In this document: piece by piece, positions 5,910 through 26,227 of the stretch
Numbering within the stretch: position 1 is the first letter of the stretch
Layout: each line of letters begins with the position of its first letter
NCBI GenBank assembly: GCA_947586855.1
Contig: CANPXV010000010.1
Coordinates: 1 to 50,897, forward strand
DNA length: 50,897 bases
Direction: 5' to 3'
From: an uncultured Clostridia bacterium
GTDB taxonomy: Bacteria; Bacillota; Clostridia; Christensenellales; CAG-314
Position numbers and translations under genes: made by a program
Notes under the pieces: generated by a model
What the model was told of the DNA's origin: nothing
What the model saw: the letters and a program-made list of their open reading frames with translations, nothing else
Database searches by the model: none

Positions 5910-5939
5910 TTGACAGAGTATATTTATATATGCTAAAAT
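5910..5939 (+). promoter_or_regulatory. Promoter of the AAA+/MBG locus
   Basis: TTGACA (5910-5915) and TAAAAT (5934-5939) are 18 bases apart. The first gene's ATG is at 5947, only seven bases past the -10 box, and no Shine-Dalgarno precedes it, so the mRNA would be essentially leaderless. This is the only clear promoter seen for the roughly 20 kb that follow. Confidence 0.65.
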
Positions 5940-5946
5940 TAAATTT

Positions 5947-6639
5947 ATGGTATCTTGGATTATATTTTTTATAGCGGGTGTAGCGTTATCGCTGTGGTTT
6001 ACCGCCTGGGTCATTCCCAAAATTATGTTCAGAACAAACGCCGCCACGATGCCTGTCGGCTCCAAGGCGGTGGATAGATACAAGGACGATTTCGGCGAAA
6101 CCGTCGTTTATGTCCCTTCGTCAACGGCACGGCAGTACATCAAGCGTTACCGAATCGGTCGCGACAGCGAGGGGCTATATTTTTGCGGCGAATTGGCCAA
6201 AAATGTGGCCTTTGCAGAGTACGAGCTGACCGTCTACAACGCCGACAACGAGCTGATACAGATCCTGCGCATTCAGGAGAAGTTCAATTCGTCCAACGCA
6301 ACGGCTGTCACTCGCCTGCCCGACAAAACGGACTACGTCCAATTGCGCTTGGTGTGCCTGGACGACAACCCCATTCCCGCCGAACGCAAACGTTTCAACC
6401 TGCGCTACGGATTGTGGCTGGCGGCGTTGTGCGCCTGCATTGCATTTGTGGTGGATTTTCTCATCTGGCTGACGGTATCCTTTGTGCTGCGCTGCCTCAA
6501 CGATTTTGTCTCCGTCACATTGCAAACGGATGTGTGGGCGGCAATATTGGGCATAGCCGCACTTTTTGTGGTGATAGTGACATGCGCAGTGTCGTTGGGC
6601 GGATTCTTCCTGCGAAAGAGAGGTGATACGGATGAATAA
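5947..6639 (+). CDS. Membrane protein of unknown family, first gene of the AAA+/MBG locus
   Basis: The 230-residue protein has an N-terminal membrane helix (WIIFFIAGVALSLWFTAWVI, about residues 4-23). A central, mostly beta domain follows (residues 55-150), and the C-terminal region carries two further hydrophobic segments (about 154-183 and 197-222) before a charged end, RKRGDTDE. I recognise no family. The central part (YELTVYNADNELIQILRIQE) has the character of the C-terminal beta domain of the next protein, so they may be related accessory subunits. Translation probably starts at the very 5' end of the mRNA. The stop overlaps the next start by eight bases, indicating coupling. Confidence 0.7.
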   Translation: MVSWIIFFIAGVALSLWFTAWVIPKIMFRTNAATMPVGSKAVDRYKDDFGETVVYVPSSTARQYIKRYRIGRDSEGLYFCGELAKNVAFAEYELTVYNADNELIQILRIQEKFNSSNATAVTRLPDKTDYVQLRLVCLDDNPIPAERKRFNLRYGLWLAALCACIAFVVDFLIWLTVSFVLRCLNDFVSVTLQTDVWAAILGIAALFVVIVTCAVSLGGFFLRKRGDTDE

Positions 6640-7900
6640 AAAACGAGTTGCAGAGCCCGCCGTCGAAGAAACATCGGCAGCCGAGCTGACCCAAGCGCAA
6701 GATACGCCGCAGCCCGACCCTACCGATGCGCAACCGACCCCTGCGCCCAACCCCGAACCTGTCGAGCAACCCGCCGAGGAGCAGCCTGTCGAGCAACCTG
6801 CCGAGCAGTCAACAGAGCAGCCTGCCGAACCCGTCCAAGCGGCTGCCGAAAGCGACGCTCCTGTCGCCGATACGTCCCCCGTCGAGGCCAAGCCCCGCAA
6901 GCAGCGCAAGTCGTCAGCGGAGTTGAAGGCCGACTCAGAAGAAAAACGTCAGGCCAAGTCGCAAGCCGCCGCAGCCAAACGCAAAGCCGACCAAGCCCGC
7001 AAGGCTGCCGCCAATCGCAACAAGGGCAAATCCTCCTCCAAGAAAACGGCCAAACCCACCCTCGCACAAAAAAGGGCGGACAAAAAGGCCGCTCGCCTCG
7101 CCGCCAAAACGGAGGCCGCCAATCAAAAGGCGCAAGAGGCCGCCGACAAGCAAGCCGCCCTGCAAAGCCAAAAGGCCGCCGCCGCAGCTCAAAAGCAAGC
7201 CAAGGCGCAGCAAAAAGCCGATCGCAAGGCGCAACGCCGCACCAAAAAGAAGCCCCTGACTGCCGAGGAGCGCAAGCAACTCAAACGGGACAAGAAAGAG
7301 GCTTTGAAGCAACTTGCGCAGCAAAGAAAGCAAATTTTGCACAATCAATTGCCGCCCAAGCCGCAGCCGAAGCAGCCCCTGCCCGAGACGGAGTTTTTCG
7401 GCAAAAAGCTGCCCTATCCGGGCAATTTTCCCGTGTATTGCTGCAAATATGTGATATGCCGAGACGCCTCTCCAAGCGTTGCGCTGAGATTTTTCAACGC
7501 AAGCGACATCACTGTCACGGGGTTGCGCTTCACCATCACGCAAAAGGACGGCGACGGCAACCCAATCGAGTCCGTCACAATGGAGCGGTTGGGCCTGTTT
7601 GCGGAAAGCAGCACCGAGTTTGCCGTTGCAGATGCGCCCGTGTCCGCCTCCTGCGAGGAAATTGACGTGTGCGTCAACACCGTCCGGTCCGACGACTACG
7701 AGTACATCATCGACGACAGCGGTCAGGTAACGCTCAGCTACGGCACCAACAAGTTGGGCAAGGAATTTTTCTTTAAGGAAGCGCCAACCTATTCCGTCAA
7801 AAAGAAGCGCAAAGGCTACACATTGCTGGCTCTTGGGGCGGTGTTGGGCATGGTGACCGTCATGCTGCTGGTGCTGATGGCAATGGGAGTTTTCAGTTAG
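6632..7900 (+). CDS. Lys/Ala-rich tail-anchored membrane protein
   Basis: The frame opens at 6623, but the ribosome-binding site AGAGAGG lies seven to ten bases before the ATG at 6632 (422 residues). Residues 10-80 are a low-complexity Pro/Glu/Gln region with repeated EQPAEQPVEQ-type units. Residues 85-240 are a highly charged Ala/Lys/Arg-rich segment likely to form a long helix or bind an acidic partner. Residues 250-385 are a beta-rich domain (FPVYCCKYVICRDASPSVAL). A single C-terminal membrane helix (LALGAVLGMVTVMLLVLMAM) leaves almost nothing outside, so the bulk should face the cytosol. It may link the membrane to the AAA+ proteins or to nucleic acid, but nothing in the sequence proves this. 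Confidence 0.75.
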   Translation: MNKKRVAEPAVEETSAAELTQAQDTPQPDPTDAQPTPAPNPEPVEQPAEEQPVEQPAEQSTEQPAEPVQAAAESDAPVADTSPVEAKPRKQRKSSAELKADSEEKRQAKSQAAAAKRKADQARKAAANRNKGKSSSKKTAKPTLAQKRADKKAARLAAKTEAANQKAQEAADKQAALQSQKAAAAAQKQAKAQQKADRKAQRRTKKKPLTAEERKQLKRDKKEALKQLAQQRKQILHNQLPPKPQPKQPLPETEFFGKKLPYPGNFPVYCCKYVICRDASPSVALRFFNASDITVTGLRFTITQKDGDGNPIESVTMERLGLFAESSTEFAVADAPVSASCEEIDVCVNTVRSDDYEYIIDDSGQVTLSYGTNKLGKEFFFKEAPTYSVKKKRKGYTLLALGAVLGMVTVMLLVLMAMGVFS

Positions 7901-7950: not shown

Positions 7951-10900
7951 ATGCCAAAGCATACAGAAATATTGGAAAAACTCAACAGATTGCAAAAGGC
8001 GGCGCTTGTGGCGTCGGCCTTTGCCGCCGAGCCCTTCATTCAGGCGGATATCCCCGCAGTCAACGTCACGCCGTTGGACGGCGCCGACCCAAACGCCATT
8101 TCCTACGGCAGTGCGGTGCGCAGTTGGGATCCGCAGCTTGTGGGGCAGCTTACGCAGCTGCTGATCGCCGAAAAGGGCTGCAAAAACAATCTGTTTGTCG
8201 CACCCGACCTCAAATCGGCCGTCAATCCCTACGCAATGGACGGCACGCTATCCGAGGATTCCTTCCTCAATGGTGAGGTGGGCGCAGCGATAGTGCATGC
8301 GGCGCACAAAGTTGGGGCGTACATCGGCTTGGGTCGCTTGTCCGTATCGCAAAGCGAGCTGGACTACATCGACGAGTCGGAGGATTTTGCCGCCGTGCAC
8401 GAGCTGTTTACCCAACCCTTTGTGCACGCAGCGCAGCAATCCCCCTGTGACGCCGTGCTGTTGTGCCCCTCACGCGAGGGCGTCGGCTATCACGACACCA
8501 ACCGCACCCTGCTCAACGAGGTGCAAAACGGCCTCTTGGGCGAGGATGTGTTTGTGGTGGGCGAGGGCGAAACGTTTTCTTCGGACGCCGTGGGCATGTT
8601 GCACGGAAAGATAACGCTTGGCGGCTGCACCATTCCGCTGGAAAGGGCCGTACGCAGATACGCCCAGTTGCTGCATTACGAGCAGGAGGGCAGTATCCCC
8701 CACCGAGAAGTGGAAGATTCTCTGTTGGCAGGCAATGCCATTTCCGACGAGGCGCTGGACGAGCTTGCGGACCACATCATAGATTTTGCTTTGGCGTTGG
8801 ACGCAGCCGAATTGCGCACCTCGCCCGAGCAAACGGAGGCGCTTTCGGATAGCGAAGTCGACATTCCCGTTGTCAAACAGGCCGATACCCCCGCCGCAGA
8901 CGACGCCGAAACTACCGAGCAAGCGCAAACCGACGACGTTGCCGAGCAAACCGACTTGGACGAAACTGCGCAATCGGATACAGCCGCCGATTTGCCGCCC
9001 GAAACGGAGCTTTCCGAATCTCAACCCGACGAACAACAGCCTCAAACCGATCTGCCGCAGGATCAAGTTGACTACACAGAGCCAACGCCCGTTGTCGACG
9101 AGCCCGCCCCGCAGGAGACGGACGTATTTGCCGACCCCGACGCCGTTGCCAAACGTCTTGCGGCAGAAAGCATAGTTCTGCTCAAAAACAACAAAATTTT
9201 GCCGTTGGACGAGGGCAAAAAAATCGCTCTCGTCGGCGACGCCAACTTCAACACGGCTGCCTTTGGGCAAAGTTTCGACGTTGTGGGCAAGGCTCGCGGC
9301 TACGATCGCACCTTGCAGCGCAGCGACACTCTGATACCGGCAGCGGTGCGTTGCACCAAAAATGCCGATGCGGCGGTGGTGTTTTTGTATCCCGAACCGG
9401 GCAAGCTCACCCTGCCCGCCAACCGCATTGCGTTGCTTTCCGCACTAAAAAGGGCACACAAAAAGGTGGTGGCCGTGGTGTGCGGCGACGCCCCCGTGGA
9501 TATGAGTTTTGACGACAACGTCGACGCCTTGTTGGTGGCGCCGTCCGATTGTCCCTTTGCCGCCGAGGCTCTTGCGGATATCCTGTGCGGCAAGCAAAAT
9601 CCGTCGGGCAGGCTGACACGCACCCTCTACGACAACGCCGACGAATACTATCGCAACTACATTCAGCGCAAAAAGGACGGCGTCATGCACATCGGTTCCT
9701 TTGTGGGCTACCGTCGCATGAGCGTAGAAAAGACCGTCGTGCGCTATCCTTTTGGCTACGGCCTCAGCTACACACAATTTACCTATTCCAACCTGACCCT
9801 CGGCGAGGGCCAACTGTCCTTTACCCTCACCAACAGCGGCAAATACGACGGCGCCGAGGTGGTACAAGTGTACATCGGCGTTCCGCAAACGACTCGGGTT
9901 GCTCCTTCCAAGCAGCTGCGTGCATTTTGTCGAGTCTTTTTGCGCAAAGGCGAAAGCCGCACTGTAACTTTGCCCTTGCCCGAGCGCACGTTCGAAAGTT
10001 ACGACGCAGGCAGCTACACCGACACAATCGAGGCGGGCGACTACACAATTTACGTTGGTCCCTCTCCCGTCGATATACGCCTCACCGCCCAAAAGACGAT
10101 GGACGGCGTCACCCGCGAAAAGACGGGCTACACTTTTGCCGACTACTCGCCCGACGCCGATTTCGGCGACGTTGCGCATGTGGGGCTACACAACCGCATT
10201 TCGCAAAAAACCGACCCCATGTCGAGTGAATTGCGCCTCACGCAGAAAATCGCCCGATATGCCGTGCCCATCTGCGCCATATTGTTTTTTGTGGCCTTTT
10301 CGGTGATTTTGGCGTCGCTGTCCATCGACTACCTTTTGTTTGAGGCGGCTCAATTGGACATTGTGGAACAGGCAATGTTTTGCGCTGCGGTGATAGCCAT
10401 CGCCCTGATACCTTTGGCAGGCAGCCTCAACCGCAAACGCCTTGTGCGCATACGCAACGTTTCTATGGTGCTGACGCCGCTGCTCATACTGCTGTGTCTC
10501 GGCATATTTATCATCACCGAGTTTGGCGGGGTGGATTTGGTAGACGAACAGATGCGAGAATTGTTTGTCAACGTGCTGACGTGCATAGCCATCGGCACGC
10601 CCATCATGGCGTTGATAGCGTTGCTTGTCGAGCGGCAGTTGTGGCGCAACCAGAACGGCAAAAACCGTTGGGATCGCTACTATTTCGAAAGGGAAAAGGA
10701 GGGCAAAACCACCTCGGACGAGCAATTTGACCAAGCCATGCACGCCGCCGACGTCGCACGGGAAGCTCGTGTTGTCAAGCAAAAGCCGGAGGAGCGTGTG
10801 ATCATTGCCGAAGTGCCGCAGTTCTACGACAAGCGCCTCACCTTCGAGCAGCTGATGACGGACTGCGCACAGTTTGTTGCGGAGTACGGCCTCACCGTGT

Positions 10901-11757
10901 CGGAAGATGTTTTGCGCAATTGGATAGCGGCCATTTCCTCCAATCAGTTGGTGTTTGTGCCCCAAGGCGGCACAGAACTGTGTTCGGCCGTGGCGGAGTA
11001 TTTCGGCAGGTCGGTATATGTGGATAACGCCGAGCGGTACGTCCGCATTGAAGATATGTTTGCAGAGTGGCACGCAGGCGACCTCACCAATGTGCCCACC
11101 AATCTTGCAAGGGCCTTCGACAAGGCCTCCAAGGAGACAGCCTACCTGCACACCGTGCTCATTCGTCATGTCAACCCCGATTTTGTCGAGACGTTGTTCC
11201 GTCCGCTTGCCGATGTGGTCTTGCGGACCAAGCTCACCGTCCCCGTGGCGGGCAAAAACGTTGCCCTGCCCGACAACATTGTGATCGTGGCGGAGTTGGA
11301 AAGCGACCAAACGGTGTTGCCGCCCGATATCGGCGCCGTTGCCGCACAGCTTTGCCCGCAGGTAAGCGAGTGCGAGCCCGCCCAACACCGCACGATAGTG
11401 CAAACGGTTGGTTTCGAGCGTTTCAAGGCGCTTTGCCGCACCGTCTGCGACGATTATCCGCTGGACGAGGACGTCTGGAAGCAGGTAGACGCTCTGGACG
11501 AGCACTGCAAATCGGCGCATATCGGCAACAATATGTGGAACAGAATGGAACTGCACACTTCGGTGGCGTTGGCCTGCGGAGCCGACCCCGACGACGCAAT
11601 GGACAGCGCAATAGCCGTCGAAGTGCTGCCTTGGCTTGTCACCGTCTGGCAGGACGAGCTGTGCGAGATCACGCTACCCAACGCCCTCCTCGACAGTTTC
11701 GGCGACAAACTGACGCAAAGCATGGCATTGCTGAAAAATGCCGACCAAGAAAAATGA
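7951..11757 (+). CDS. GH3-like pseudoenzyme fused to four membrane helices
   Basis: In order, this 1,268-residue protein has: a shortened GH3 N-terminal-like region (1-285); an acidic, Thr/Gln/Pro-rich linker (286-396); a GH3 C-terminal domain (397-610), with AAESIVLLKNNKILPL and YPFGYGLSYTQFTYSNL diagnostic; a fibronectin-III-like GH3 module (about 620-715); four membrane helices (about 769-795, 808-827, 838-860, 872-893); and a 370-residue C-terminal domain of no known family. The usual GH3 nucleophile motif (SDW) is absent: the equivalent strand reads VFVVGEGET. It therefore probably binds rather than cleaves glycan. No signal peptide is present, and basic residues before helix 1, between helices 2 and 3 and after helix 4 predict that both ends lie in the cytosol. 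The stop overlaps the AAA+ start (ATGA). Confidence 0.8.
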   Translation: MPKHTEILEKLNRLQKAALVASAFAAEPFIQADIPAVNVTPLDGADPNAISYGSAVRSWDPQLVGQLTQLLIAEKGCKNNLFVAPDLKSAVNPYAMDGTLSEDSFLNGEVGAAIVHAAHKVGAYIGLGRLSVSQSELDYIDESEDFAAVHELFTQPFVHAAQQSPCDAVLLCPSREGVGYHDTNRTLLNEVQNGLLGEDVFVVGEGETFSSDAVGMLHGKITLGGCTIPLERAVRRYAQLLHYEQEGSIPHREVEDSLLAGNAISDEALDELADHIIDFALALDAAELRTSPEQTEALSDSEVDIPVVKQADTPAADDAETTEQAQTDDVAEQTDLDETAQSDTAADLPPETELSESQPDEQQPQTDLPQDQVDYTEPTPVVDEPAPQETDVFADPDAVAKRLAAESIVLLKNNKILPLDEGKKIALVGDANFNTAAFGQSFDVVGKARGYDRTLQRSDTLIPAAVRCTKNADAAVVFLYPEPGKLTLPANRIALLSALKRAHKKVVAVVCGDAPVDMSFDDNVDALLVAPSDCPFAAEALADILCGKQNPSGRLTRTLYDNADEYYRNYIQRKKDGVMHIGSFVGYRRMSVEKTVVRYPFGYGLSYTQFTYSNLTLGEGQLSFTLTNSGKYDGAEVVQVYIGVPQTTRVAPSKQLRAFCRVFLRKGESRTVTLPLPERTFESYDAGSYTDTIEAGDYTIYVGPSPVDIRLTAQKTMDGVTREKTGYTFADYSPDADFGDVAHVGLHNRISQKTDPMSSELRLTQKIARYAVPICAILFFVAFSVILASLSIDYLLFEAAQLDIVEQAMFCAAVIAIALIPLAGSLNRKRLVRIRNVSMVLTPLLILLCLGIFIITEFGGVDLVDEQMRELFVNVLTCIAIGTPIMALIALLVERQLWRNQNGKNRWDRYYFEREKEGKTTSDEQFDQAMHAADVAREARVVKQKPEERVIIAEVPQFYDKRLTFEQLMTDCAQFVAEYGLTVSEDVLRNWIAAISSNQLVFVPQGGTELCSAVAEYFGRSVYVDNAERYVRIEDMFAEWHAGDLTNVPTNLARAFDKASKETAYLHTVLIRHVNPDFVETLFRPLADVVLRTKLTVPVAGKNVALPDNIVIVAELESDQTVLPPDIGAVAAQLCPQVSECEPAQHRTIVQTVGFERFKALCRTVCDDYPLDEDVWKQVDALDEHCKSAHIGNNMWNRMELHTSVALACGADPDDAMDSAIAVEVLPWLVTVWQDELCEITLPNALLDSFGDKLTQSMALLKNADQEK

Positions 11758-13028
11758 TCAGATTGTTGGCAGATGATTTGTGGGACACGCTCACGTCCCC
11801 TACGATGATATTGGTGTATGTTGCCGCCATCGTTTTGCTGATGGTGGGCATAGTCATATCCATGATGGCAAACGAGCACCGTTTTTCCGCCTTTGTGGAC
11901 CGCATTGGCAACAGTGCCAAAAAGGCCGAGGCCTCCAAGGAGCAGCCTCACTCTCGGTTCGACATGCTAACCCACCTCGACGAGGAGTTGGCTACCCGTC
12001 CGCCCAAGGATTTCGTCAACGACATCACTCTCAAAGAGTTTTGCGACGCTTTCCGCAATTTTTCGGCGGGCAAGCTCAAGCTGTACTACGACATCGGCAC
12101 GATAAGAGAGTTTATTGCGGGGTTGGCCGTATCGCACATCATGATATTGCAAGGTATGTCGGGCACGGGCAAAACGTCTTTGGCGTTTGCCTTTGGCGAG
12201 TTTATCCAAAACCCCTCGGCGGTGGTGCCTGTGCAGCCCATGTGGAAGGATCGCTCGGACTTGCTTGGCTACTACAACGAGTTTACCAAGCGCTTCAACG
12301 AAACATTGCTGCTGCAAAAAATCTACGAGGCCAACGGCTGCGAGGATATGTTTGTGGCCATTCTGGACGAGATGAACATCGCTCGGGTAGAGTACTACTT
12401 TGCCGAGTTTTTGTCGCTGTTGGAGATCCCCAATCTGGAGTCCCGCAATCTTGAAATCGTCTCCGACCATTGGGAGGACGACCCCAAGGATATCAAAAAC
12501 GGCTGCGTGCGTTTGCCGCCCAACATGTGGTTTTTGGGCACGGCCAACAACGACGACAGCACATTTGCCATTTCCGACAAGGTCTACGACCGTGCCATGG
12601 TGCTCAACATCAACGACAAGGCCGAGCCGTTTGTGGCGGTGGCGGGCAGTCCGTTGCCCATCACGGCCAAGCGCTTTGAGGAGCTGGTAGACAAGGCGAT
12701 AAAGGAAAATGCCGTTTCGCAATCCCTTTTGGAAAAATTGGACCTCATCGACAAGTACCTGATGGACAACTACCGCATCGCATTCGGCAACCGCATAATG
12801 AAGCAGATCATGCAATATATCCCCGTGTATGTTGCCTGCGGCGGCAACGAATTGGACGCTCTTGACGAATTGCTTGCCAGCAAAGTGCTCCGCAAGCTGG
12901 AAACTCAAAATATGACCTATCGCAAATCCGACCTCGAAGCTCTCTGCGACAAATTCAACGAGTATTTCGGCACGGATCGCATGGCACACTGCCTCAGCGC
13001 AATCAGACGCTGCGCACGCAACGCATAA
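11754..13028 (+). CDS. Membrane-anchored McrB-like AAA+ ATPase, copy 1
   Basis: The start is the ATG that overlaps the previous stop (ATGA), giving 424 residues; the longer open frame upstream overlaps the GH3-like gene and is not used. Residues 15-38 form one membrane helix. The AAA+ module follows, with Walker A GMSGTGKTS (134-142), Walker B and following helix AILDEMNIARVEYYFAEFLS (Asp205, Glu206) and a sensor-1 region GTANNDDSTF (from 262). The DEMN...FAEFLSLLE pattern is that of McrB-type AAA_5 ATPases. However, the MNxxDR signature of McrB GTPases is replaced by ANNDDS, so nucleotide preference may differ. It is a close paralogue of the ATPase at 15109-16566. Likely role: ring-forming motor at the cytosolic face of the membrane. 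Confidence 0.85.
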   Translation: MIRLLADDLWDTLTSPTMILVYVAAIVLLMVGIVISMMANEHRFSAFVDRIGNSAKKAEASKEQPHSRFDMLTHLDEELATRPPKDFVNDITLKEFCDAFRNFSAGKLKLYYDIGTIREFIAGLAVSHIMILQGMSGTGKTSLAFAFGEFIQNPSAVVPVQPMWKDRSDLLGYYNEFTKRFNETLLLQKIYEANGCEDMFVAILDEMNIARVEYYFAEFLSLLEIPNLESRNLEIVSDHWEDDPKDIKNGCVRLPPNMWFLGTANNDDSTFAISDKVYDRAMVLNINDKAEPFVAVAGSPLPITAKRFEELVDKAIKENAVSQSLLEKLDLIDKYLMDNYRIAFGNRIMKQIMQYIPVYVACGGNELDALDELLASKVLRKLETQNMTYRKSDLEALCDKFNEYFGTDRMAHCLSAIRRCARNA

Positions 13029-13033
13029 CCAAC

Positions 13034-15073
13034 ATGACAGAAGCTGATACATTATTCCGAGCCTTCGGCGAACTGTTCAAGCTCGTCGGCGGCGAGCCCA
13101 ACACCACAAAACTTATGGACGCTATCGCCAAATCGCCTAACAGCGAATCCATCACCGTGACGCACAAGGTGTGCCATGTAGAGACGGATTGGCTGGACGC
13201 TATCGAGCGAGGGCTGATTTTTGTGGGCAAGGCTATCGAAGAGGATCGCCAATTTATACGCACCGATGGCGAAGTGAAGCCTATTGAAAAGGTCAAGCAC
13301 ATCTCCAAGGAGTCGGTCCAGCACTTGTCCCGCCACAGCGACCTCATCACTCGCGAGCAAAAGGCGGACGGCGACATCGTGCCCGACAAGCTCTACACCG
13401 TCGAAAAGGACAGCGACTACGCAGTGTACGAAAACCGTTTTTTGTACATGTTGCTGTGCTACATTCGCGAGTTTGTCAACGTGCGCTACCATGCCATTTC
13501 CGACGCCTACAAGCACTATCGGGGAGAGTACAAAGTCACCAAAGTAGTCAAGCTCAACAACCGCAAGCTCAACTTTACCTACGACCTCACCGAGGAGCAG
13601 GGCGATGCGTTGGTCGTCCCCACCGACGACGAATGTGCGCAGGCGCTCAGCCGCATAAACATCATTTTGCAAAGCGTCGCTTTCTATTTGCGCACGCCCA
13701 TCATGCAGGAAGTGTCCACCGTGGACAAAATCGGGCCCAAGGTCACCAAAACCAACGTGCTGCTCAAAGACAAAAACTTTTTCGGCGCATTGCAACTGTA
13801 CGAATATCTGTTGGACTACGACCGGGACGGCTACACGGTAGAGCAGTGCGTAGATGTTTTGCCCATCACCGAGCAGCTTGCCAAAGAGTTTTCCGTGCCC
13901 ACAATGCTGACGGCGTTTTTGATGTTCGAGCATGGGCTGGGTCTGGAAAAGTACTTGCAGGCCGAGTTCGACAAGGAGGAGCTGCGCCGCGCCAACGAAC
14001 GACAAAAGGAACTCAAAAACAAACTTGCCGCCCTCAAAAAGAAGCTGGAAAAAACCGGCGAAAGTCTGGAAGAATACTTTGCCATGTTAGAGGAGCGCAA
14101 TTCCATTCTGGAAAACAGCTACGACCTCTGGCAGTCCGCCTTGAAGGATATCGAGCAGCTAAAAGCGGAAATTGCCCACCTCAAAACGGAAATCGAGTTG
14201 TTGCAAGCGGAAGTGACGCAGCTCATCGAGGAAAAACGCCTCTTGCAGGAAGAAATGGAGCGCAAGGAGGAGGAGCACCGCCAACAGATTGCCGAAATGC
14301 AACGCCTGCACGAGGAGGAGATCGCCGCTCTCAAAGCCTCTCACGAGGAGGAGATTGCCGCCATCAAAGCCTCCTACGAGCAGCAGATTGCCGAGCTGCA
14401 ACAGCGTTCCCGTCAGGAGTTGGAGCAGCTGAAAATGCAGACGGCGCAACAGATAGCTAACCTCAAAAAGGCCCACGCCGACGAGCTTGCCAATCTGCGT
14501 GCCGAACATTCCTCTCGTATCGAGTCGTTGAAGGCCGAGCACAAAAGGGAAAAGGAAAAACTTGTTGCCGACTGCGAAAAGCGTGTTGCGGATAGCACTG
14601 CCAAGCTGCAAGAAAGCCAATCCAAGGTGCAAAACACGTTGGACGAGCTGTACAAACTGCGCCAACAGCTGACCTTTACCTCGCAGGAGAGGGATATCGT
14701 CAAGGCCCGCCTGTTGGCCACCCGCCGAGAGCACGGCCTGCTGACCGCAGCGGACGACTTTACCACCGAGGAGGGTTTCACCGCCCTCGAACACGAGTTC
14801 GAAGTGTTGTGCAGGATGCTTTCCGACGAGTGGAACAAGGTCAAGGCCCTGCTCCGCAAGGAGATGTTCGACCAGATCCGCACCAACATGCACAAGCGCA
14901 AGCAAAAAGAGAGCAAAGAGTACAAAGAAATTCAACAATTTGTCAACGCGCGGGATAACGCCGCCTCCGACGCACCCCAACAGGATGTCGACAAGGGCGC
15001 AACGGACGGCGAGTCAACGTCCCCGACGGAACAGACGGCCGCCCCCGACGAACCCAAGTCCGCCCGCAAGTAA
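13034..15073 (+). CDS. DUF2357-like coiled-coil protein
   Basis: This 679-residue protein begins with a domain (about 1-300) that resembles DUF2357, the McrC-like partner of McrB-type ATPases. The block KDSDYAVYENRFLYMLLCYI (about 126-145) is the characteristic part. From about residue 308 to 580 it is a long heptad-rich coiled coil (for example EIAALKASHEEEIAAIKASY). A charged helical domain and an acidic low-complexity tail follow. DUF2357 proteins usually end in a PD-(D/E)xK nuclease; I see no such motif here, so a scaffold or regulator of the ATPases is more likely than a nuclease. It lies five bases after the first ATPase, without an obvious ribosome-binding site, consistent with coupling, and before the second ATPase. 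Confidence 0.75.
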   Translation: MTEADTLFRAFGELFKLVGGEPNTTKLMDAIAKSPNSESITVTHKVCHVETDWLDAIERGLIFVGKAIEEDRQFIRTDGEVKPIEKVKHISKESVQHLSRHSDLITREQKADGDIVPDKLYTVEKDSDYAVYENRFLYMLLCYIREFVNVRYHAISDAYKHYRGEYKVTKVVKLNNRKLNFTYDLTEEQGDALVVPTDDECAQALSRINIILQSVAFYLRTPIMQEVSTVDKIGPKVTKTNVLLKDKNFFGALQLYEYLLDYDRDGYTVEQCVDVLPITEQLAKEFSVPTMLTAFLMFEHGLGLEKYLQAEFDKEELRRANERQKELKNKLAALKKKLEKTGESLEEYFAMLEERNSILENSYDLWQSALKDIEQLKAEIAHLKTEIELLQAEVTQLIEEKRLLQEEMERKEEEHRQQIAEMQRLHEEEIAALKASHEEEIAAIKASYEQQIAELQQRSRQELEQLKMQTAQQIANLKKAHADELANLRAEHSSRIESLKAEHKREKEKLVADCEKRVADSTAKLQESQSKVQNTLDELYKLRQQLTFTSQERDIVKARLLATRREHGLLTAADDFTTEEGFTALEHEFEVLCRMLSDEWNKVKALLRKEMFDQIRTNMHKRKQKESKEYKEIQQFVNARDNAASDAPQQDVDKGATDGESTSPTEQTAAPDEPKSARK

Positions 15074-16566: not shown

Positions 16567-16605
16567 CATGCGCATTTGCGGTTTGCCGCAACAAAAGGTA
16601 GTGCA

Positions 16606-18417: not shown

Positions 18418-18463
18418 CAAACTGCAAACAACAACAATCAACCAATAGAAAGGTCAACAAGAG

Positions 18464-21400
18464 ATGCTCTATCAAGAATACAAAGCAAAGTTAGCCAAGC
18501 GTCAACGCCTCATCGAGCGCTTGTGGAAATTCCGCCTGCTGATATTGTCGGCGGCAATTTTGCTTGTTGTTTCTACGGGCACACTCATGGGTATCAAGGG
18601 CATGTCCTACGCTTTTGAAGCGCCCGCCAAGATACTTTACGGCCAAAGCTACACGCCCTCTTCAAGCTGCATTTTCGGCGAAGTCTCCTACGAGTATCGC
18701 AAAGTGGGCGATGAGCATTGGACGGACCAATGCCCCATCTATGCGGGCAGCTACCAGTGCCGCACCGTCACAACGTCGGTGTTCGGCACCAAGCGCACGG
18801 GCAGTGCGCACAACTTCGAGATAGCCCCAACCGAGCTGAACGTCGTTGTGTACGGCAGCGATTTGCAGTACGGCGCCGAGCCTGTCTTTCACGGCGACAC
18901 GTCCTATGGCGACAGGGTGATGGTCAGCAACTACACTTTGCAACACAGTGCCCAAAGCGACGAGATCCTTGTTTGTTTCGATTCGCAGGATGTCACCGTT
19001 GTCAATTCTGCCGACGAGGACGTCACCGACTCCTACATTGTCGGCACCGAGCAAAAGGCGCTTCACGCCCAATTGCGGCCCGTCACGCTCACAATGCCCA
19101 CTCTTTCGGTCGAGTACGATGGCCAAGCCCACGCTGCGGACGTTGCTGCGGTGCAGGCGGACGGTTTGCTGCCAAAGCACAGAGTGGAGGCCACTTTCCA
19201 ATCCTTCACCGAGGCGGGCACCTACCCCAACCAACGTCTGCCCCTGCAAGAGGGCGGCCCCGATTATCGCATAGTAGAGGACGAGGGCGATTCGATTGTG
19301 GACCGCACCTACATGTACAATGTGGATTGGCGCAGCGGCTCTGTGGAAATTTCCAAACGCAAGATCATTGTCGGCGCATCGTTGCAGCCGATAGTGTACG
19401 ACGGCGCCGAGCACGTCTATCGCGAGTGCAACCTGCTGGAAGGCACCACCCTTGCCGATGGACAAGATTTCCGCATAACCGACTTTTGCTCAGGCACCGA
19501 TGTGGGCAGCTACACCCCCATCACCAATGGGCGCATAGCCGTCTACGAGGGCGAAAAAAACGTCACTTCCAACTACGACATCACTCGCCGCTTCGACCCG
19601 ATGGTCATTTCCAAGCGGCCCGTTACCCTTTGCACAGCCGACGCCGAGTTCACCTACGACAGCGCCGAACATTCCTTTGCCGACGTCACAACTCTATCCA
19701 ACACTCCGCTTGCAAGCGGTCACAGCCTTGACGTTGCGCCCTTTGTCGTCACCAACGCCAACGAGCAGGGCTACGTCAACGCCCCTGCCTGCCAAATTGT
19801 GGATGCCGACGGCCGCATTGTCACATCCAACTATCAAATCACGGATAGATTTGGCACGGTGGTGGTGCACAAACGTCCGATAACGGTGGCAACGGTGTCT
19901 CACGAGTTTTGGTATAGCGGTCTGGACAACGTTCCCTCGTCGGATCTGGGCGAAATTGTCAACGGCGACGCCCTTTTGCCGCCCAACGACGCCATGCAGC
20001 TGTCCTACGACGGCCTCACTATGGTCAACGCCAACGAGCAGGGCTACACCAACAAGCCCGTCGTTACCATATTCAACGCCGACAGGCAGGATATCACCTC
20101 GCTCAACTACGTCCTCTCCTATGCGGACGAGCTGGGCAAGATAGTGGTGCACAAGCGCAATCTGTCTATCGCAACGCAAAGCGACACATTTGTTTATAAC
20201 GCCGAAGAGCAGTTTGCCGAGGGCTACGATGTGGCGCCCTACGACGAAAACGGCAATGGATTGGCGCTGGGGCACAATTTGCAGGTACAAACCCACACTG
20301 CGATCAAAAACTTTTCGGATAGCGGCAAGCCCAACGAGTTGACTTTTGTCGTGCAGGACGGCAACGGCAACGATGTGTCCGCCAACTACAATCAAAGCCT
20401 CACCTACGGCACGCTGTCCGTTGACAAAGCAACAATATCCGTGCGCACCGATGACGCCGAAAAAGTCTACGACGGCGCCCCATTCGAGCATTTTTCCGTC
20501 ACGGTAGATGGGCTTGTGCACGATGAAAGTTGGGTTTTGTCTGATATCACCCATGGCGAGCTGCCCATCGATTGCACATCTCAACCCGTTTCCAACAGTT
20601 TCAGCTTTACCCTGCATTTGTGGGACGGCGAGCAGGACGAGGACGTCACCGAAAACTACAATGTCGTTTCGGCTTTGCAAAGCGTAACCTACGGCTCGCT
20701 TACCATCACGCAACGCTCTGTCACCTTCACCATGCAGACAGGCGAGTTCACCTACGACGCCCAATCGCACACCTTTGAGGAAATTGCCGTTTCGGGCCAC
20801 AGCGACGACTTTGGCAATGGTTTGGTGCATGGACACAAGCTGCAAAGCGTAACGTTCCGCTACTTTGCGGACGTGGTGGATACCGCCCCCGACAACAACA
20901 CCCCGATATCTACGGGCATCATATTGGACGGCGAGGGGCACGACGTCACCGCCAACTACATCATAACTTGGCACTACGGCACCGTCACCGTTCTTCCCCG
21001 CCCCGTCACTTTCACAACGCAAACGGCCCAATTTACCTACAACGCCCTGCCGCACACCTACAACGAGATCGAGGTGTCAGGCCACAGCGACGACTTGGGC
21101 GATGGCTTGGTGCAGGGGCACAAGTTGCAAGGCGTGGAGTTCCGCTCTTTCACCAATGTTGCGGATACTTCCGACAGTAACAACTATCCGCTTTCTGCGG
21201 GCGACATATTGGATGGCGAGGGCAACGACGTCGCCGCCAACTACATCATAACTTGGCACTACGGCACCGTCACCGTTCTTCCCCGCCCAGTCACTTTCAC
21301 AACGCAAACGGCCCAATTCACCTACGACGCTCAACCGCACACCTTTGAGGAAATTGCCGTTTCGGGCCACAGCGACGACTTCGGCAGCGGATTGGTGCAG

Positions 21401-24400
21401 GAGCACACGCTGCAAGGCGTGGAGTTCCGCTCTTTCATCAATGTTGCGGATACTTCCGATCTCAACAACGCTCCGCTATATTCCGGCAACATATCGGACG
21501 GCGCAGGCAACTATGTGGACGCCAACTACGATATTACGTGGCGCCACGGCACCGTCACTATCGACAAGCGTCCCGTCACGCTTTCCACCGATTCCGTCAC
21601 AGTTACCTACCGTGGCAAGCAGGGTTTCGATTTCAGCAGCTTAATGCCGTCCGATGGGTCAATTGCCGATAGCGACAGTCTGGAAGTGACGCCTTTGCAC
21701 CTTTGGCAAGCGACGGAAGGGCCTGTTGTCAATGCGCCCACCTACGACATCGTGCGTAGCGGCGTTTCGCAGTTGGATAACTACAACATCAGCAAGTCTT
21801 TCGGCGAAATTGTCATCGAGCGCCTCGTAGTGGATATAGATATGAGCGTGGAAATCGGCGGTCGCCCCCTCACGTTCACCTACGACGCCCAACCGCACAC
21901 CTTTTTGCCCCTTGAGGCAAACTTTGTCAAAGGCAACTTTGCCGAGGGCGACACCCCAAACTACATCAATTTCCTTGTGGATATCGTCAACGCAGGCACC
22001 TATAATCCCGATCTGAAAGTGCAGGTCCTTTGCGACGGCGAGGATGTCACGTCCAACTACGATATTTCCATCACCAAGGCCGCCGTCACTATCGACAAGC
22101 GTCCCGTCACGCTTTCCACCGATTCCGTCACCGTTACCTACCGTGGCAAGCAGGGCTATGATTTCAACGAAATCAACGCTACCGGCGGCCTGCCCGCCGA
22201 ACCTGCTATTGCCGCTGGCGACATTTTAGATGTGACGCCTTTGCACCTCTGGCAAGCGACGGAAGAGCCTATCGCCTATGCGCCAACCTACGACATAACA
22301 AGGGACGGCGTATCGCAGTTGGGTAACTACAACATCAGCGAGTCTTTCGGCGAAATTGTTATCGAACGCCTCAAAGTGGAAATAGATATGAGCGTGCAAA
22401 TCGACGGCCGCCCCCTCACGTTCACCTACGACGCCCAACCGCACAGCTTTTTGCCCCTTGACGGCAACTTTGTTCAGGGCGACTTTGCCGAGGGCGACAC
22501 CCCAAACTACATCGATTTTCTCGTAAATATAGTGGACGCAGGCACCTATTCGCCGAATCTTGATGTCCAAGTCCATTGCGACGGCGATGACGTCACATCC
22601 AACTACAATATTTCCGTCATGTCCGCCACCGTCACCATCGAAAAGCGCCCCCTTGCGTTGCAAACCACCAACAAGGATGTCTTTTACAGCGGCCAAAGCA
22701 ACCTGCCAACCACCGTCAGCGAGGCCTTCCTGTTTGTGGACGGCGCATTGCAGGGCAGGGACGAGTTGCGCTTCGACTACGGCCGTCAAACAATGGTGGA
22801 CGCCAACGAGGATGGCTACGTCAACAATCCCAGCTTCAACATCGTCAGGGATGGCGTCAATCAGGACGACAACTACGAGGTAAACGTTCAGTCTTACGGC
22901 AATATAGTGGTGCGCAAGCGCAAGATAGATTTCCAAATTGATGACATCTCGCTAGGTTACAACGGCAAGTTGCAGGGCAAAACGGATAGCACGGAGCTTA
23001 TCAAATACAGCTGGTATGGCGAAGTGGAGCAGGGCTTTTGCGTGGCCAATGGCAGCGACCACACTTTTATTGTCAGCAACTCTGCCGAGTACAAAGATTG
23101 CGGCGACTATGATATGGTTTGCAGCTGGAAAGTGCTCGATGGCAGCGGCGCCGACGTGTCGAAAAACTACAACTTCATTCCGCACGACAAGACCACACCC
23201 CAACTGCACATAACCCAACGTTCGCTGACCTTCACTGTGCATGGCGACAGCAAAGTGTACGACGGCACGCCCCTCACCTGCAACAAAATCGATGTCGGCG
23301 GGCTTGTGGACGACCCGCAACACACAATCAAGTACAACATCACCGAGACATTGCCCTCACTTACAGATGTCAATGTCGATGGCATACTCAACAAATTTGC
23401 TTTCGAATTTACCGTCACCGACGAAGAAGGCTACGATGTAACCCGCAACTACGCCGCCGATTGGGACAGCTCAGTGTACGGCACGCTTTCCGTCACGCCC
23501 TACGGCCTCACCGTCAGCCCCGCCCCCGACTGGGGTTGGACCTACGACGCCACTTGCCACCTCGATTGGCAAAAATCCTTTGTGGTAAGCAACACCGCAG
23601 GCGGCGATCAGCCCCTGCCCAACGGCATGCGCCTGTCCATCACCTTCTCCAATATCGTCAATGCGGGCGGTTACTACGCCGTGTGGAGCGACGAAAGCGT
23701 TTCGCCAAGCACCCAAGCGGAGGATACATTCCTATATTCCTTCAAGGTGTATCTGGGCGACGAGGACGTAACCCGCAACTTTGTCTTCACCGACAACGTG
23801 CGAGATCAATATCTCAATGTTTTACATCGCAAAATCAGGATGATAACGGGCAGCGGCGAGTTCGAGTACGATGGCGATCCGCACAGCGTGGAAGAAATTG
23901 TCGGCGACAACCTTGTCAAGGGACACCATCTGGACACAAGCTCGATAGCCTTCCCCTCCTACACGGATGTCCGGCAGAGTTCCACCGAAAACAACAAGCC
24001 CACTTGGGAGACCGTCATAGTCGACTCCGACGGCAACGATGTAACCCGCAACTATTCGGTGGGCTTCAACTACGGCACCGTGACAATTTTGCCTCGACCG
24101 ATCACCGTCACCACGCGCTCGGCAGAGTTCGTCTATGATAGCACAGTCCACAAAGAGTACAACACTTGCAAGGTGACTTCGGATAAGCAGCTGGTGCAAG
24201 GCCACAAGTTGGTATCAACCTACGGCGACGGTTATTGTTTTGCCAACGATGTGCCCTACACAAACGCCTGGACATCGCTGAGAATCGAAAACGCCGACAA
24301 ACAGGACGTCACGTCCAACTACGAGATCACCCCTGTTTACGGCCAAATCAAGATAAACAAGCGCCCGATAACGGTTCGTCTCAAAGCCGACGCCTTGCTT

Positions 24401-26227
24401 TCCTGGACGTACGACAAGCAATTCCACCTTTCCGATCAAACGGATTGTGTGGAAGTGTGCGACGACACCACGCTGTGCGATCTCGAACAAATCAGTATCA
24501 GCTGGACATACTGGTCGCCCACTGCAGTTAACGCAGGACTGCACAAAATGGGTCCAATGGACAGCACGGCAGAAATCAAGTACGAAATCTCCATCATAAA
24601 AACACTGTATGGCGCCAACCGCACCTCCAACTACGAGATCACCGACAAAGTGCAGGGCAGCCAAGTCGAAGTGGTGCGCCGCAATGTCACGATAGACCCC
24701 ACAGGAGAGTGGGACCGCATCTACAACGGCAAAACCATCACCTTCGAGGAAAACTTTGCTGTTTTGCCCGCCGACGACACCCAAGGCCTGCTGGACGGGC
24801 ACTATATCACGGCGAACTTTGCGCACAACACGTCCGATGTCGGCACCTACACCCCCAAGAGGGCCATTTCTCCCACCGCAAGCGAGGGCAAAATTGTCTA
24901 TTTCTACGAGATCATCGAGTACGTCAGAGATACCGAAATCGACGTAATCGACAACTACAACATAGTGGACAACATCAGCGACAAAAAGACCTTCACCATC
25001 TCCCGCCGTCCCATCACGGTGGACAGATCTCCCTACTACGAGTGGGATTGGGAGTACAACGCCGAGTGCAACATCGATTCAGGCTACTTCTCAATTGCCG
25101 ATGGCAGCACAGGCGTCGACTATCAGTACATACAAATCGACTTCTCGCAGCGGCCCAACAAAGCAGGCACCCACTTTGCCCGCAACGCCAATTTGCAGCA
25201 GGATTTCAGCGGCGATGACTTGGTGTACACAATTGCCATCTACGACAGCTGGAACTCCCTCAACGTCACCGACAACTACGACATCACCGACAACGTGGAC
25301 GGTACCTCTTTCGAGATAGCCAAGTACCGCATCACGATTATCACCGACTCTCGCACTTGGGTGTACAACCAAGACTACACAATCTATTCCGAAGGTGGCT
25401 ATTCCATCGCCAACGGCAGAGGTTTTCTTCCCGGCCACAATCCCGAATACACCCCCACCCAGCTGTTCGACATCACCGACACGGCCGATTCGCCCGTCTA
25501 TATCGACAACGAGTTCAACAACTTCCGCATTGTCAGTGGCTGGGAGGACGACGTCACCAACAACTACGATATAACCTGGCGCAACGGCACATTGCGCATC
25601 AAAACGCCGATAGTGGTGCGTATCTACACCGTCAACAAAACCTACGACGGTCAGGGCGTAAAGCTCACTTCCGATAACTATCGTGTCGAAAAACGTCCGC
25701 CCGACATCCGCAAGCAGGATATCGAACTCAACCTTGTCTACAACGAGATGACCAGGCCGGGCACTGTCAGTCTGGAAGATTTTTCCAACGCCAACGTCGC
25801 CTACAACAGCTATCAAGGCAACACCATGTACTTCTATGGCGAACCCGACCGCCCCGACAATGCGGCGATAACAGTGCACAACTGCACCGACGGCGTGTGC
25901 GGTATCCAACTGCTTTGCGGCAGCCAGACCGTCATCAGGATCAACAAGCGCAACATCACGCTGCGGCCCGTTTCCGCCAAGGAAATCTGGGGCGAGGGCA
26001 AGTTTATACAGGGCAGCTATCAAGTTTCGGGCAAGTTGGCCCTGGGCGAGTACCTCAAAGTGGAAATGTCCGTGCTGTACTACTACATGCCGTCGATAGA
26101 AAACACTGTTGTAAGTTTCAGCGTTCTCAACAGCAATGGCGAGGACCTCACAAACGAGTGCTACAACGTAACCGTTTCCGGTGCAAAGGCCACGCTCAGC
26201 TGGATAAACTATCCCTACACCTATTGA
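18464..26227 (+). CDS. Giant MBG/YDG-repeat surface protein, 2,587 aa
   Basis: After a basic N-terminus and one membrane helix (about residues 24-46, LLILSAAILLVVSTGTLMGI), almost the whole protein is a chain of roughly 25 beta-rich MBG/YDG-type units of 85-100 residues. Each typically opens with (R/K)x(V/I)T and a (T/V)YDG or FTYDA box (SKVYDGTPL, EFTYDAQSHTF) and ends with DVTxNYxIxxxYGTVxI. Three successive units near 20715-21560 are near-copies, and a 177-residue block is duplicated at 21561 and 22092. No LPXTG sorting signal or C-terminal anchor is visible, so it probably stays tethered by its N-terminal helix, forming a long extracytoplasmic fibre. It follows the 27-residue-repeat protein by 46 bases (AAAGG ribosome-binding site) and is the last gene of the run. 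Confidence 0.85.
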   Translation: MLYQEYKAKLAKRQRLIERLWKFRLLILSAAILLVVSTGTLMGIKGMSYAFEAPAKILYGQSYTPSSSCIFGEVSYEYRKVGDEHWTDQCPIYAGSYQCRTVTTSVFGTKRTGSAHNFEIAPTELNVVVYGSDLQYGAEPVFHGDTSYGDRVMVSNYTLQHSAQSDEILVCFDSQDVTVVNSADEDVTDSYIVGTEQKALHAQLRPVTLTMPTLSVEYDGQAHAADVAAVQADGLLPKHRVEATFQSFTEAGTYPNQRLPLQEGGPDYRIVEDEGDSIVDRTYMYNVDWRSGSVEISKRKIIVGASLQPIVYDGAEHVYRECNLLEGTTLADGQDFRITDFCSGTDVGSYTPITNGRIAVYEGEKNVTSNYDITRRFDPMVISKRPVTLCTADAEFTYDSAEHSFADVTTLSNTPLASGHSLDVAPFVVTNANEQGYVNAPACQIVDADGRIVTSNYQITDRFGTVVVHKRPITVATVSHEFWYSGLDNVPSSDLGEIVNGDALLPPNDAMQLSYDGLTMVNANEQGYTNKPVVTIFNADRQDITSLNYVLSYADELGKIVVHKRNLSIATQSDTFVYNAEEQFAEGYDVAPYDENGNGLALGHNLQVQTHTAIKNFSDSGKPNELTFVVQDGNGNDVSANYNQSLTYGTLSVDKATISVRTDDAEKVYDGAPFEHFSVTVDGLVHDESWVLSDITHGELPIDCTSQPVSNSFSFTLHLWDGEQDEDVTENYNVVSALQSVTYGSLTITQRSVTFTMQTGEFTYDAQSHTFEEIAVSGHSDDFGNGLVHGHKLQSVTFRYFADVVDTAPDNNTPISTGIILDGEGHDVTANYIITWHYGTVTVLPRPVTFTTQTAQFTYNALPHTYNEIEVSGHSDDLGDGLVQGHKLQGVEFRSFTNVADTSDSNNYPLSAGDILDGEGNDVAANYIITWHYGTVTVLPRPVTFTTQTAQFTYDAQPHTFEEIAVSGHSDDFGSGLVQEHTLQGVEFRSFINVADTSDLNNAPLYSGNISDGAGNYVDANYDITWRHGTVTIDKRPVTLSTDSVTVTYRGKQGFDFSSLMPSDGSIADSDSLEVTPLHLWQATEGPVVNAPTYDIVRSGVSQLDNYNISKSFGEIVIERLVVDIDMSVEIGGRPLTFTYDAQPHTFLPLEANFVKGNFAEGDTPNYINFLVDIVNAGTYNPDLKVQVLCDGEDVTSNYDISITKAAVTIDKRPVTLSTDSVTVTYRGKQGYDFNEINATGGLPAEPAIAAGDILDVTPLHLWQATEEPIAYAPTYDITRDGVSQLGNYNISESFGEIVIERLKVEIDMSVQIDGRPLTFTYDAQPHSFLPLDGNFVQGDFAEGDTPNYIDFLVNIVDAGTYSPNLDVQVHCDGDDVTSNYNISVMSATVTIEKRPLALQTTNKDVFYSGQSNLPTTVSEAFLFVDGALQGRDELRFDYGRQTMVDANEDGYVNNPSFNIVRDGVNQDDNYEVNVQSYGNIVVRKRKIDFQIDDISLGYNGKLQGKTDSTELIKYSWYGEVEQGFCVANGSDHTFIVSNSAEYKDCGDYDMVCSWKVLDGSGADVSKNYNFIPHDKTTPQLHITQRSLTFTVHGDSKVYDGTPLTCNKIDVGGLVDDPQHTIKYNITETLPSLTDVNVDGILNKFAFEFTVTDEEGYDVTRNYAADWDSSVYGTLSVTPYGLTVSPAPDWGWTYDATCHLDWQKSFVVSNTAGGDQPLPNGMRLSITFSNIVNAGGYYAVWSDESVSPSTQAEDTFLYSFKVYLGDEDVTRNFVFTDNVRDQYLNVLHRKIRMITGSGEFEYDGDPHSVEEIVGDNLVKGHHLDTSSIAFPSYTDVRQSSTENNKPTWETVIVDSDGNDVTRNYSVGFNYGTVTILPRPITVTTRSAEFVYDSTVHKEYNTCKVTSDKQLVQGHKLVSTYGDGYCFANDVPYTNAWTSLRIENADKQDVTSNYEITPVYGQIKINKRPITVRLKADALLSWTYDKQFHLSDQTDCVEVCDDTTLCDLEQISISWTYWSPTAVNAGLHKMGPMDSTAEIKYEISIIKTLYGANRTSNYEITDKVQGSQVEVVRRNVTIDPTGEWDRIYNGKTITFEENFAVLPADDTQGLLDGHYITANFAHNTSDVGTYTPKRAISPTASEGKIVYFYEIIEYVRDTEIDVIDNYNIVDNISDKKTFTISRRPITVDRSPYYEWDWEYNAECNIDSGYFSIADGSTGVDYQYIQIDFSQRPNKAGTHFARNANLQQDFSGDDLVYTIAIYDSWNSLNVTDNYDITDNVDGTSFEIAKYRITIITDSRTWVYNQDYTIYSEGGYSIANGRGFLPGHNPEYTPTQLFDITDTADSPVYIDNEFNNFRIVSGWEDDVTNNYDITWRNGTLRIKTPIVVRIYTVNKTYDGQGVKLTSDNYRVEKRPPDIRKQDIELNLVYNEMTRPGTVSLEDFSNANVAYNSYQGNTMYFYGEPDRPDNAAITVHNCTDGVCGIQLLCGSQTVIRINKRNITLRPVSAKEIWGEGKFIQGSYQVSGKLALGEYLKVEMSVLYYYMPSIENTVVSFSVLNSNGEDLTNECYNVTVSGAKATLSWINYPYTY
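20715..21560 (+). repeat. Three near-identical MBG units (about 285 bp period)
   Basis: Bases from 20951 (encoding ANYIITWHYGTVTVLPRPVT) recur almost unchanged 285 bases later at 21236, and the preceding unit (from about 20715) shares FTYDAQSHTFEEIAVSGHSD. Conservation at the DNA level, including silent sites, indicates recent expansion or gene conversion. Confidence 0.8.
21561..22622 (+). repeat. Recent 531-bp tandem duplication within the giant gene
   Basis: The block starting at 21561 (ACAAGCGTCCCGTCACGC falls in both copies) repeats in frame 531 bases later at 22092. Each copy encodes 177 residues, comprising two MBG-like units. Both contain RPVTLSTDSVTVTYRGKQG, VTPLHLWQATE and FAEGDTPNYI. 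Confidence 0.8.

Follow-up and report, generated by a model that had tools for sequence, protein, structure and literature searches.

The subject of this analysis is a group of eight genes on contig CANPXV010000010.1 of an uncultured Clostridia bacterium (Christensenellales, CAG-314). The contig, 50,897 bases long and called the window below, is one of the 36 contigs of a 1.47-Mb genome, and the genes, designated A-B-C-D-E-F-G-H, occupy its positions 5910-26227, all on the + strand. The sequence-only reading of the same DNA had described seven same-strand genes with overlaps or short gaps; the common strand and the tight spacing are borne out, while the number of genes is eight, and that reading's own list names eight. 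With the starts of B, D and G reset to ATG codons backed by comparison with relatives, the intergenic gaps amount to -8 nt (A-B), 50 nt (B-C), -4 nt (C-D), 5 nt (D-E), 35 nt (E-F), 39 nt (F-G) and 46 nt (G-H). The features are as follows (aa, amino acids; TM, transmembrane; ORF, open reading frame; AAA, the ATPase domain).

5910..5939, + strand: promoter-like site TTGACA-18-TAAAAT with TG before the -10 box (consensus match only, 11/12)
5947..6639, + strand: gene A, 230 aa, 3 hydrophobic segments (ORF and segment prediction)
6632..7900, + strand: gene B, 422 aa, 1 hydrophobic segment (TM near the C-terminus)
7951..11757, + strand: gene C, 1268 aa, pseudo-GH3, about 4 TM helices, C-terminal degenerate AAA domain
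9172..9771, + strand: in C, Glyco_hydro_3_C (residues 408-607), followed by an Fn3-like domain (Pfam)
10270..10629, + strand: in C, hydrophobic segments (residues 774-893), with four long helices at the matching place of the L063 model
10690..11754, + strand: in C, degenerate McrB-like AAA domain, Walker A/B absent (profile matches and motif check)
11754..13028, + strand: gene D, 424 aa, 1 TM segment, intact McrB-like AAA (AAA_5), NxD-type motif
13034..15073, + strand: gene E, 679 aa, 0 hydrophobic segments, DUF2357 and a coiled coil of about 220 residues
15109..16566, + strand: gene F, 485 aa, 2 TM segments, intact McrB-like AAA (AAA_5)
16606..18417, + strand: gene G, 603 aa, N-terminal TM segment and weak second segment, PW(D/E) repeats, Cys/His-rich stretch, MBG-like C-terminus
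18464..26227, + strand: gene H, 2587 aa, N-terminal tail MLYxxYxxK, one TM segment, long repeat ectodomain

Comparison with other genomes indicates that the eight-gene locus is a conserved operon. From 563 pattern matches in genome contigs, 513 of them encoding a relative, the best 80 were taken and yielded 68 named loci, which were fetched with the ATPases and labelled with profiles started from the window genes; since they were drawn from the best 80 of the 513 encoding stretches, these loci are biased toward the window's type. All profile matches lie on one strand in 68/68 loci, the series AAA-E(DUF2357)-AAA-surface-surface is consecutive in 48/68, and all eight genes stand in order in 32/68, with median gaps from -17 to +16.5 nt (the window, whose D was missed by the automatic layout and added by hand, is not counted among the 32). 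E is present in 58 loci, C with both its GH3 and AAA parts in 53, and at least two Walker A-bearing AAA genes in 52 (the label AAA demanded a Walker A match); a labelled surface gene accompanies the ATPases in 57, in line with the co-occurrence expected from the earlier description. Many of the incomplete loci are cut by contig ends. E follows immediately after an AAA-bearing gene in 57 of 58 cases and immediately precedes one in 56 of 56. In nine loci picked for paired D/F matches, E lies between the two ATPases and surface genes come after them in every case; six of the nine (L145, L146, L147, L148, L151, L153) repeat loci already among the 68 (L114, L074, L058, L071, L112, L080). A chance neighbourhood of the genes was rejected, as their order recurs in dozens of genomes.

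As to the distribution of the operon, the F query found matches in 19 of 61 relatives' genomes, its own genome included. Within the genus the count is 5 of 25 genomes, namely four with paired D/F (again including its own) and G008 with one chimeric ATPase. Within the order the pseudo-AAA profile, which finds intact relatives too, matches 68 of 248 genomes, and 12 genomes (the window's included) match in an open frame of at least 1,052 aa at 1e-51 or better. In a spread of 391 genomes of the class eight match at 1e-40; as only three of the eight have such a long frame, and two of these three come from the order, the full type is uncommon outside it. Gut samples, among them rabbit ('Lapin'), chicken and sheep, appear to be the source of the loci, and Candidatus Gallimonas, Borkfalkia and Anaeroplasmataceae are represented; in the named strain Anaerocaecibacter muris CLA-AA-M11 (L114) the part from C to H is present, with A and B not recognised. 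Three C-type matches (G138:C8, G147:C40, G201:C3) hold one or two in-frame stop codons. A different layout, the 7-TM type, has no C altogether (G020, G024, L080, G008); in G020, G024 and G008 a 7-TM gene replaces A-B-C, and its first 33 residues alone resemble A (probability 56). At the A-B-C position of genus relatives (L027 5119-10004, L033 1281-5294) there is a 6-7-TM protein, with a Cthe_2159 carbohydrate-binding protein nearby, and a gene with the SMODS-associating 4TM effector domain (PF18159; L029 11528-12730) adjoins the 7-TM-type locus of G024.

The ATPases and their partner E point to the ancestry of the system. Window D and F contain AAA_5 by Pfam together with TM segments, so the two membrane-anchored McrB-like ATPases recognised earlier stand, and an N-terminal hydrophobic segment is present on these ATPases. 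The Walker B motif LDE[ML]NxARxE was found in 119/123 D/F genes and the NxD-type motif G[TS]xNxD[DN]S in 123/123; Walker A, found in 122/123, is not an independent count, being part of the D/F labelling. The NxD motif is given as a mark of the McrB-like clade in the part of PMC11090510 at hand, and by Walker B and the NxD-type motif D and F can be assigned to this NxD clade of AAA+ proteins. Window E matches DUF2357 (PF09823) at residues 77-163 with 26.9 bits (cut-off 23.3), and its model (predicted local distance difference test score, pLDDT, 75.7; predicted template modelling score 0.46) begins with a mixed alpha/beta region reaching to about residue 341, continues as a coiled coil over residues 345-566 and adds one more helix, which bears out the DUF2357-like coiled-coil protein of the sequence-only reading. 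Its two statements that every partner except E has membrane segments and that no nuclease is visible also hold: all proteins other than E have at least one hydrophobic segment, Pfam recognised no nuclease family in A-G, and in the E model, where only helices follow residue 276, there is no nuclease fold.

McrBC type IV restriction systems and CoCoNuTs share with the operon an AAA_5/McrB-like ATPase and DUF2357, with a coiled coil in the DUF2357 partner; unlike them, the operon has no recognised nuclease or specificity domain and possesses membrane anchors and surface genes, and a solved McrB matches at no better than E 0.0019. An ordinary McrBC system was accordingly rejected: DUF2357 is present, but Pfam shows no nuclease family in A-G and the E model has no such fold. 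A CoCoNuT was rejected as well, since no nuclease or RNA-targeting domain (HEPN, CSD, YTH) appears in A-G at Pfam E<=0.1. We give an even chance to the reading that the locus encodes a membrane-bound AAA+ machine which arose from a McrB/DUF2357 (McrBC) module, lost the nuclease and now works on surface proteins.

Protein C had been described as a dead GH3-like protein fused to membrane segments; this is correct as far as the lost catalytic residues and the TM helices are concerned, while a degenerate AAA domain had been overlooked. Pfam recognises GH3_C and an Fn3-like domain in window C, the GH3 fold is covered by the C profile (positions 6-624 against 8j9f, E 4.7e-124), and it is retained in the model of the L063 protein (Foldseek 2.3e-36). 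C as an active GH3 glycosidase was rejected on the alignment of 43 C proteins (42 of the 52 longer than 1000 aa, and the window). At the places which we take to be those of the active site, judged by the alignment with 7ms2, Asp stands in the catalytic Asp column in 7/43 proteins and Glu in 23/43, and the substrate-binding Lys-His pair is lost (Lys 0/43, His 2/43 at the aligned places); window C has Glu, Gly and Arg at the catalytic Asp, Lys and His places, respectively. The L063 model (mean pLDDT 85.8, lower in the membrane part) places four long helices between the GH3 and AAA parts. Since there is no N-terminal hydrophobic segment and the number of modelled TM helices is even (four), both parts would face the cytosol, so that the GH3 part is most likely cytosolic.

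By sequence comparison C ends in a third, degenerate McrB-like AAA domain. Its last 375 residues gave a match to the F protein of G020 (2e-8, in a small database), and the A4 profile of the C-terminal region, built of 29 proteins, retrieves both window ATPases (F, 3.4e-39; D, 9.1e-36). Walker A is missing in 43/43 C proteins, and a Glu/Trp/Lys/Asp/Asn/Glu pattern of the C-terminal subdomain is invariant across the 29 regions. An hhalign comparison of this pseudo-AAA part with the D alignments (E 4e-119) was discarded because both had recruited the same AAA sequences. In six relatives the pseudo-ATPase and TM segments stand without a recognised GH3 part, and four of the six are complete (L101, L110, L112, L115); among the seven loci so labelled, L100 is a cut F gene and L056 and L102 are cut at the start. 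In C, then, it is apparently the pseudo-ATPase that stays constant, not the GH3 fold.

As for the accessory and surface proteins, Pfam found no family above its cut-off in A, B and G of the window. A has a beta-type domain, probably cytosolic, between its first and second hydrophobic segments, and by hhalign it is related to the beta-type domain of B (probability 89.9, E 1.7e-6). B combines a Lys/Ala-rich N-terminus, a conserved N-terminal beta-type domain and one TM segment; an LRR_5 part was found in 10 of 28 scanned B proteins, located after the TM segment in the three that were read (L083, L091, L116). Degenerate signal peptidases were considered for A and B and rejected (hhalign probability 0.4 and 1.0). 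Transglut_core occurs in 21 of 37 scanned G proteins (the 37 G and 28 B being subsets of 55 and 47); Cys and His motifs occur together in 26/59 G proteins and six or more window-like PW repeats in 24/59, with no locus shared by the two lists; many relatives have the transglutaminase-like domain and lack PW repeats. Window H has no Pfam match at E<=0.01, and its label MBG/YDG/AgI-II derives from relatives, mostly from weak matches, YDG being above the cut-off in L086 (45.3 bits) and L119 (28.4). A basic tail MLYxxYxxK precedes the TM segment of H; as a loose motif, defined after the tails had been viewed, it was found in 58/60 H proteins against 9/299 other ORFs with an N-terminal hydrophobic segment, spurious ORFs included. 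This common tail, and the hydrophobic segments of the AAA subunits, would suit a secretion motor in which the ring itself exports or threads G and H. We regard such a motor as very unlikely, since B, G and H look like single-pass proteins with the N-terminus inside, insertable by the Sec pathway, and Pfam recognised no channel protein.

The ectodomains, with their LRR and adhesin-like parts, and the GH3 fold with its catalytic residues lost could also be parts of an outside-in sensor, in which LRR/repeat ectodomains bind glycans or host molecules, the AAA ring signals inward and the pseudo-GH3 regulates. A parallel is the PFNA operon of bifidobacteria (AAA, DUF58, transglutaminase, FN3 protein), proposed to sense host signals according to the portion of PMC8430577 consulted. 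As outlined there, MoxR-DUF58-transglutaminase clusters of this kind resemble the present system in having an AAA+ ATPase, a membrane transglutaminase-like protein and a large immunoglobulin-like surface protein, and differ from it in having MoxR instead of McrB, and DUF58 and a kinase instead of DUF2357 and the pseudo-GH3. A sensor seems rather improbable to us, given that no kinase, response regulator or other output domain was recognised by Pfam in A-H and that the GH3 part is probably cytosolic.

More can be learned from the relation of the two ATPases. In the tree of AAA domains, one part holds 13 loci in which the D and F of an operon are each other's nearest kin; in the window's part the two form separate supported groups (D, 18 rows; F, 18 rows and the G008 ATPase). 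D and F are 98.5-100% identical in DNA over at least 1,082 nt in 13 of 57 listed pairs (row L096 is the same record as G020; L100, 100% over 141 nt, and L088, 96.9% over 423 nt, were left out of the 13 as cut fragments). In 15 loci inspected closely, of which 13 stand at 98.3-100%, L083 at 93.9% and L090 at 92.5%, the identical tract starts about 10-50 residues past the last TM segment and runs to the stop codon or as much as 13 nt beyond it (58 nt in L107). Between nearest loci the D genes are 75.6-83.0% identical in DNA (7 pairs), and two further genomes have near-identical D and F (L149, 99.1%; L150, 99.0%). In the homogenised pairs the cytosolic part is near-identical and the membrane anchors are different. 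The window, with 49% protein identity between D and F, belongs to a diverged branch, and the tree of E (60 rows, 7 unclassed, unrooted) has a supported branch that separates the 38 diverged loci from the 13 homogenised and 2 intermediate ones. In 13/68 loci the contig ends inside an AAA-bearing gene, three times at C or its pseudo-AAA; long repeats would be expected to produce such breaks.

On these sequence data the cytosolic parts of D and F are under concerted evolution in one branch, and their near-identity, combined with different anchors, would fit subunits of one ring. In the homogenised branch 1.1-kb direct repeats may let cells delete E and one anchor; L092, L104 and L116 look like such deletions, as does the chimeric single ATPase of G008, D-like to about residue 240 and then mostly F-like to about 400, and misassembly can mimic them. 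Long-lasting concerted evolution is rare in prokaryotes, with 26 genes in the survey as given in the accessible part of PMC6053082. A close parallel is mtrA-1/mtrA-2 of methanogens, two same-operon copies that differ in their TM domains and have soluble domains kept alike by gene conversion, though the protein is a methyltransferase subunit and not an ATPase (PMC4632066, as excerpted).

The nearest known systems emerge from relatives that have a single ATPase. In 17 sampled loci of this kind (G017, G022, G045, G054 and G059:C28, with other layouts, and G025 and G028, on short contigs, are not among them), E near the AAA gene and a signal-peptidase-like gene were found in 17/17; six of the 17 gave seeds to the signal-peptidase-like profile and 11 gave none. 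Small exported 'TasA-like' proteins, labelled by an AWF motif or a four-seed profile, occur in 14/17, and G030 also has one MBG-labelled gene. The name signal peptidase has a weak footing: one seed reaches 19.6 bits with Peptidase_S26, below the cut-off of 22.9, two others have no match, and a THR..KGDN motif is seen in 7 loci. In L039 (14092-17125) two EAL-domain genes come after the single-ATPase locus. For the whole family, then, the possibility that ATPase homologues mostly occur without the membrane and MBG-type genes is partly realised: of the 68 matching genomes of the order about 18, as read from the table, resemble the system, and most others have single or scattered ATPases, whose sampled context is still one of membrane and surface genes.

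The single-ATPase kin, with AAA-DUF2357 and signal-peptidase-like genes, fit the short description of CoCoPALM systems, named in eLife 94800 (PMC11090510) with the details left to a later publication. To the extent of that description, a CoCoPALM has, as here, an NxD McrB-like nucleoside triphosphatase with an N-terminal TM segment and a DUF2357 partner with a coiled coil; unlike it, the present system has two intact ATPases and a pseudo-ATPase fused to a pseudo-GH3, practically lacks signal-peptidase-like genes, and carries surface proteins that are MBG-like, LRR or transglutaminase. The McrB of a CoCoPALM is fused to an FtsB-like TM/coiled-coil segment; what is seen on the ATPases here is an N-terminal hydrophobic segment. 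The eight-gene system is thus close enough to be taken for a CoCoPALM variant differing in subunits and cargo, and the statement that it matches no known system was too strong. No description of the eight-gene system was found in the open literature of PubMed Central, as judged by titles, openings of abstracts and passages, a scope that excludes preprints and gives no proof of its being unpublished; nor did any paper there bring TasA, AAA and DUF2357 together.

As for complex formation, the direction of action and the function, which we infer, an envelope-spanning machine of the following kind may be proposed. D, F and the degenerate subunit C would form one ring under the membrane, by analogy with McrB, a hexamer; E would dock on the ring via DUF2357 as McrC does, presenting its coiled coil in place of the nuclease. 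Hydrolysis of nucleoside triphosphates would then act by way of the TM tethers and of the tails that H and G have in the cytosol. A layer of long surface proteins would thereby be assembled, deployed or kept in place, and the transglutaminase-like domain present in about half of the G relatives (not in the window) could cross-link or trim it. The pseudo-GH3 of C, probably cytosolic, may speculatively be a scaffold or a sugar-responsive regulator. In favour of such a machine we count the conserved operon, the motifs kept in D and F and the likeness of the two in one branch, the helical E next to AAA genes, the tail motif of H, the transglutaminase and LRR parts of G and B, and the signal-peptidase-like genes of the kin. 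It is a tentative further suggestion, on the doubtful side, that we might be dealing with a new class of envelope machine, in which a mixed AAA+ ring at the membrane, with two ATPases whose ring-forming halves are held identical by recurrent gene conversion, distinct anchors and a pseudo-ATPase bearing a pseudo-GH3, drives the assembly or movement of a transglutaminase-linked layer of giant proteins.

A number of observations weigh against a machine working on surface proteins. On 74 stretches of the eight-gene system the signal-peptidase-like profile gave one weak match (L101, 1.8e-4) and the TasA-like profile none; in the window's system nothing known as an assembly or secretion factor was recognised, and Pfam found no transglutaminase match in window G. 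The tail motif of G is present in 45/60 proteins, and the tail and TM segment of H show no clear excess of conservation over the ectodomain (mean pairwise identity 0.33 vs 0.31, 17 loci). L092, L104 and L116 are without E and F, and some relatives (the 7-TM type) without A-B-C. Foldseek found no match of the E model to the PDB at E<=0.001, which leaves an 87-residue Pfam match as the basis of the McrC-like docking. Finally, the PADLOC candidate-defence model PDC-M26A matches D (2.1e-43) and F (9.6e-51), and weak PADLOC matches exist to JetC for window E (9.3e-4), to DpdB for E of L114 (5.8e-5) and to REase_II for E of the kin locus L034, not of the window (2.3e-4). The likeness to PDC-M26A concerns the AAA parts and extends to two single-ATPase kin (2.2e-34, 2.4e-40), but the best stretch spans about 117 of 724 positions, and the name occurs in no paper of the PubMed Central open literature. 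The match to PDC-M26A, together with the McrB/DUF2357 ancestry, the patchy presence (5/25 genus genomes) and the variable ectodomains, would fit a membrane-anchored, CoCoNuT-like anti-phage defence, with B, G and H as the surface proteins that detect or block phage and the AAA ring as the trigger of a response at the membrane. We consider such a defence unlikely, as no nuclease or toxic effector was recognised in the operon and the kin are linked to exported proteins and signal-peptidase-like genes, and retain the surface-directed AAA+ machine as the working interpretation.

Concerning expression, position 5910 is the -35 box of the promoter-like site listed above (3 such sites observed vs 1.4 in shuffles), which ends 7 nt upstream of the ATG of A. 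Because its -10-like box ends that close to the start codon, a leaderless transcript could arise if the promoter is real (window 5934-5947); no promoter-like sites were found in 16300-18700, which covers the F-G and G-H junctions. Upstream of the operon (788-5337) lie genes for an IrrE-like M78 peptidase, a DUF4417 protein, an Ntox50 toxin-domain protein and a Fic protein with a helix-turn-helix domain, possibly a mobile-element remnant, and downstream (26877-36135) those for a GH31 glycosidase, a glycogen-branching-like CBM48 protein of the alpha-amylase family and a carbohydrate phosphorylase, apparently unrelated to it.

McrB/DUF2357 modules are usually read as restriction or defence systems. 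The recurrence of such a module in Clostridia and Anaeroplasmataceae without a recognised nuclease and beside surface proteins suggests that one branch of this motor family serves the cell envelope, and the two ATPases, which share the cytosolic part but not the tethers, turn the composition of the ring into a testable claim.

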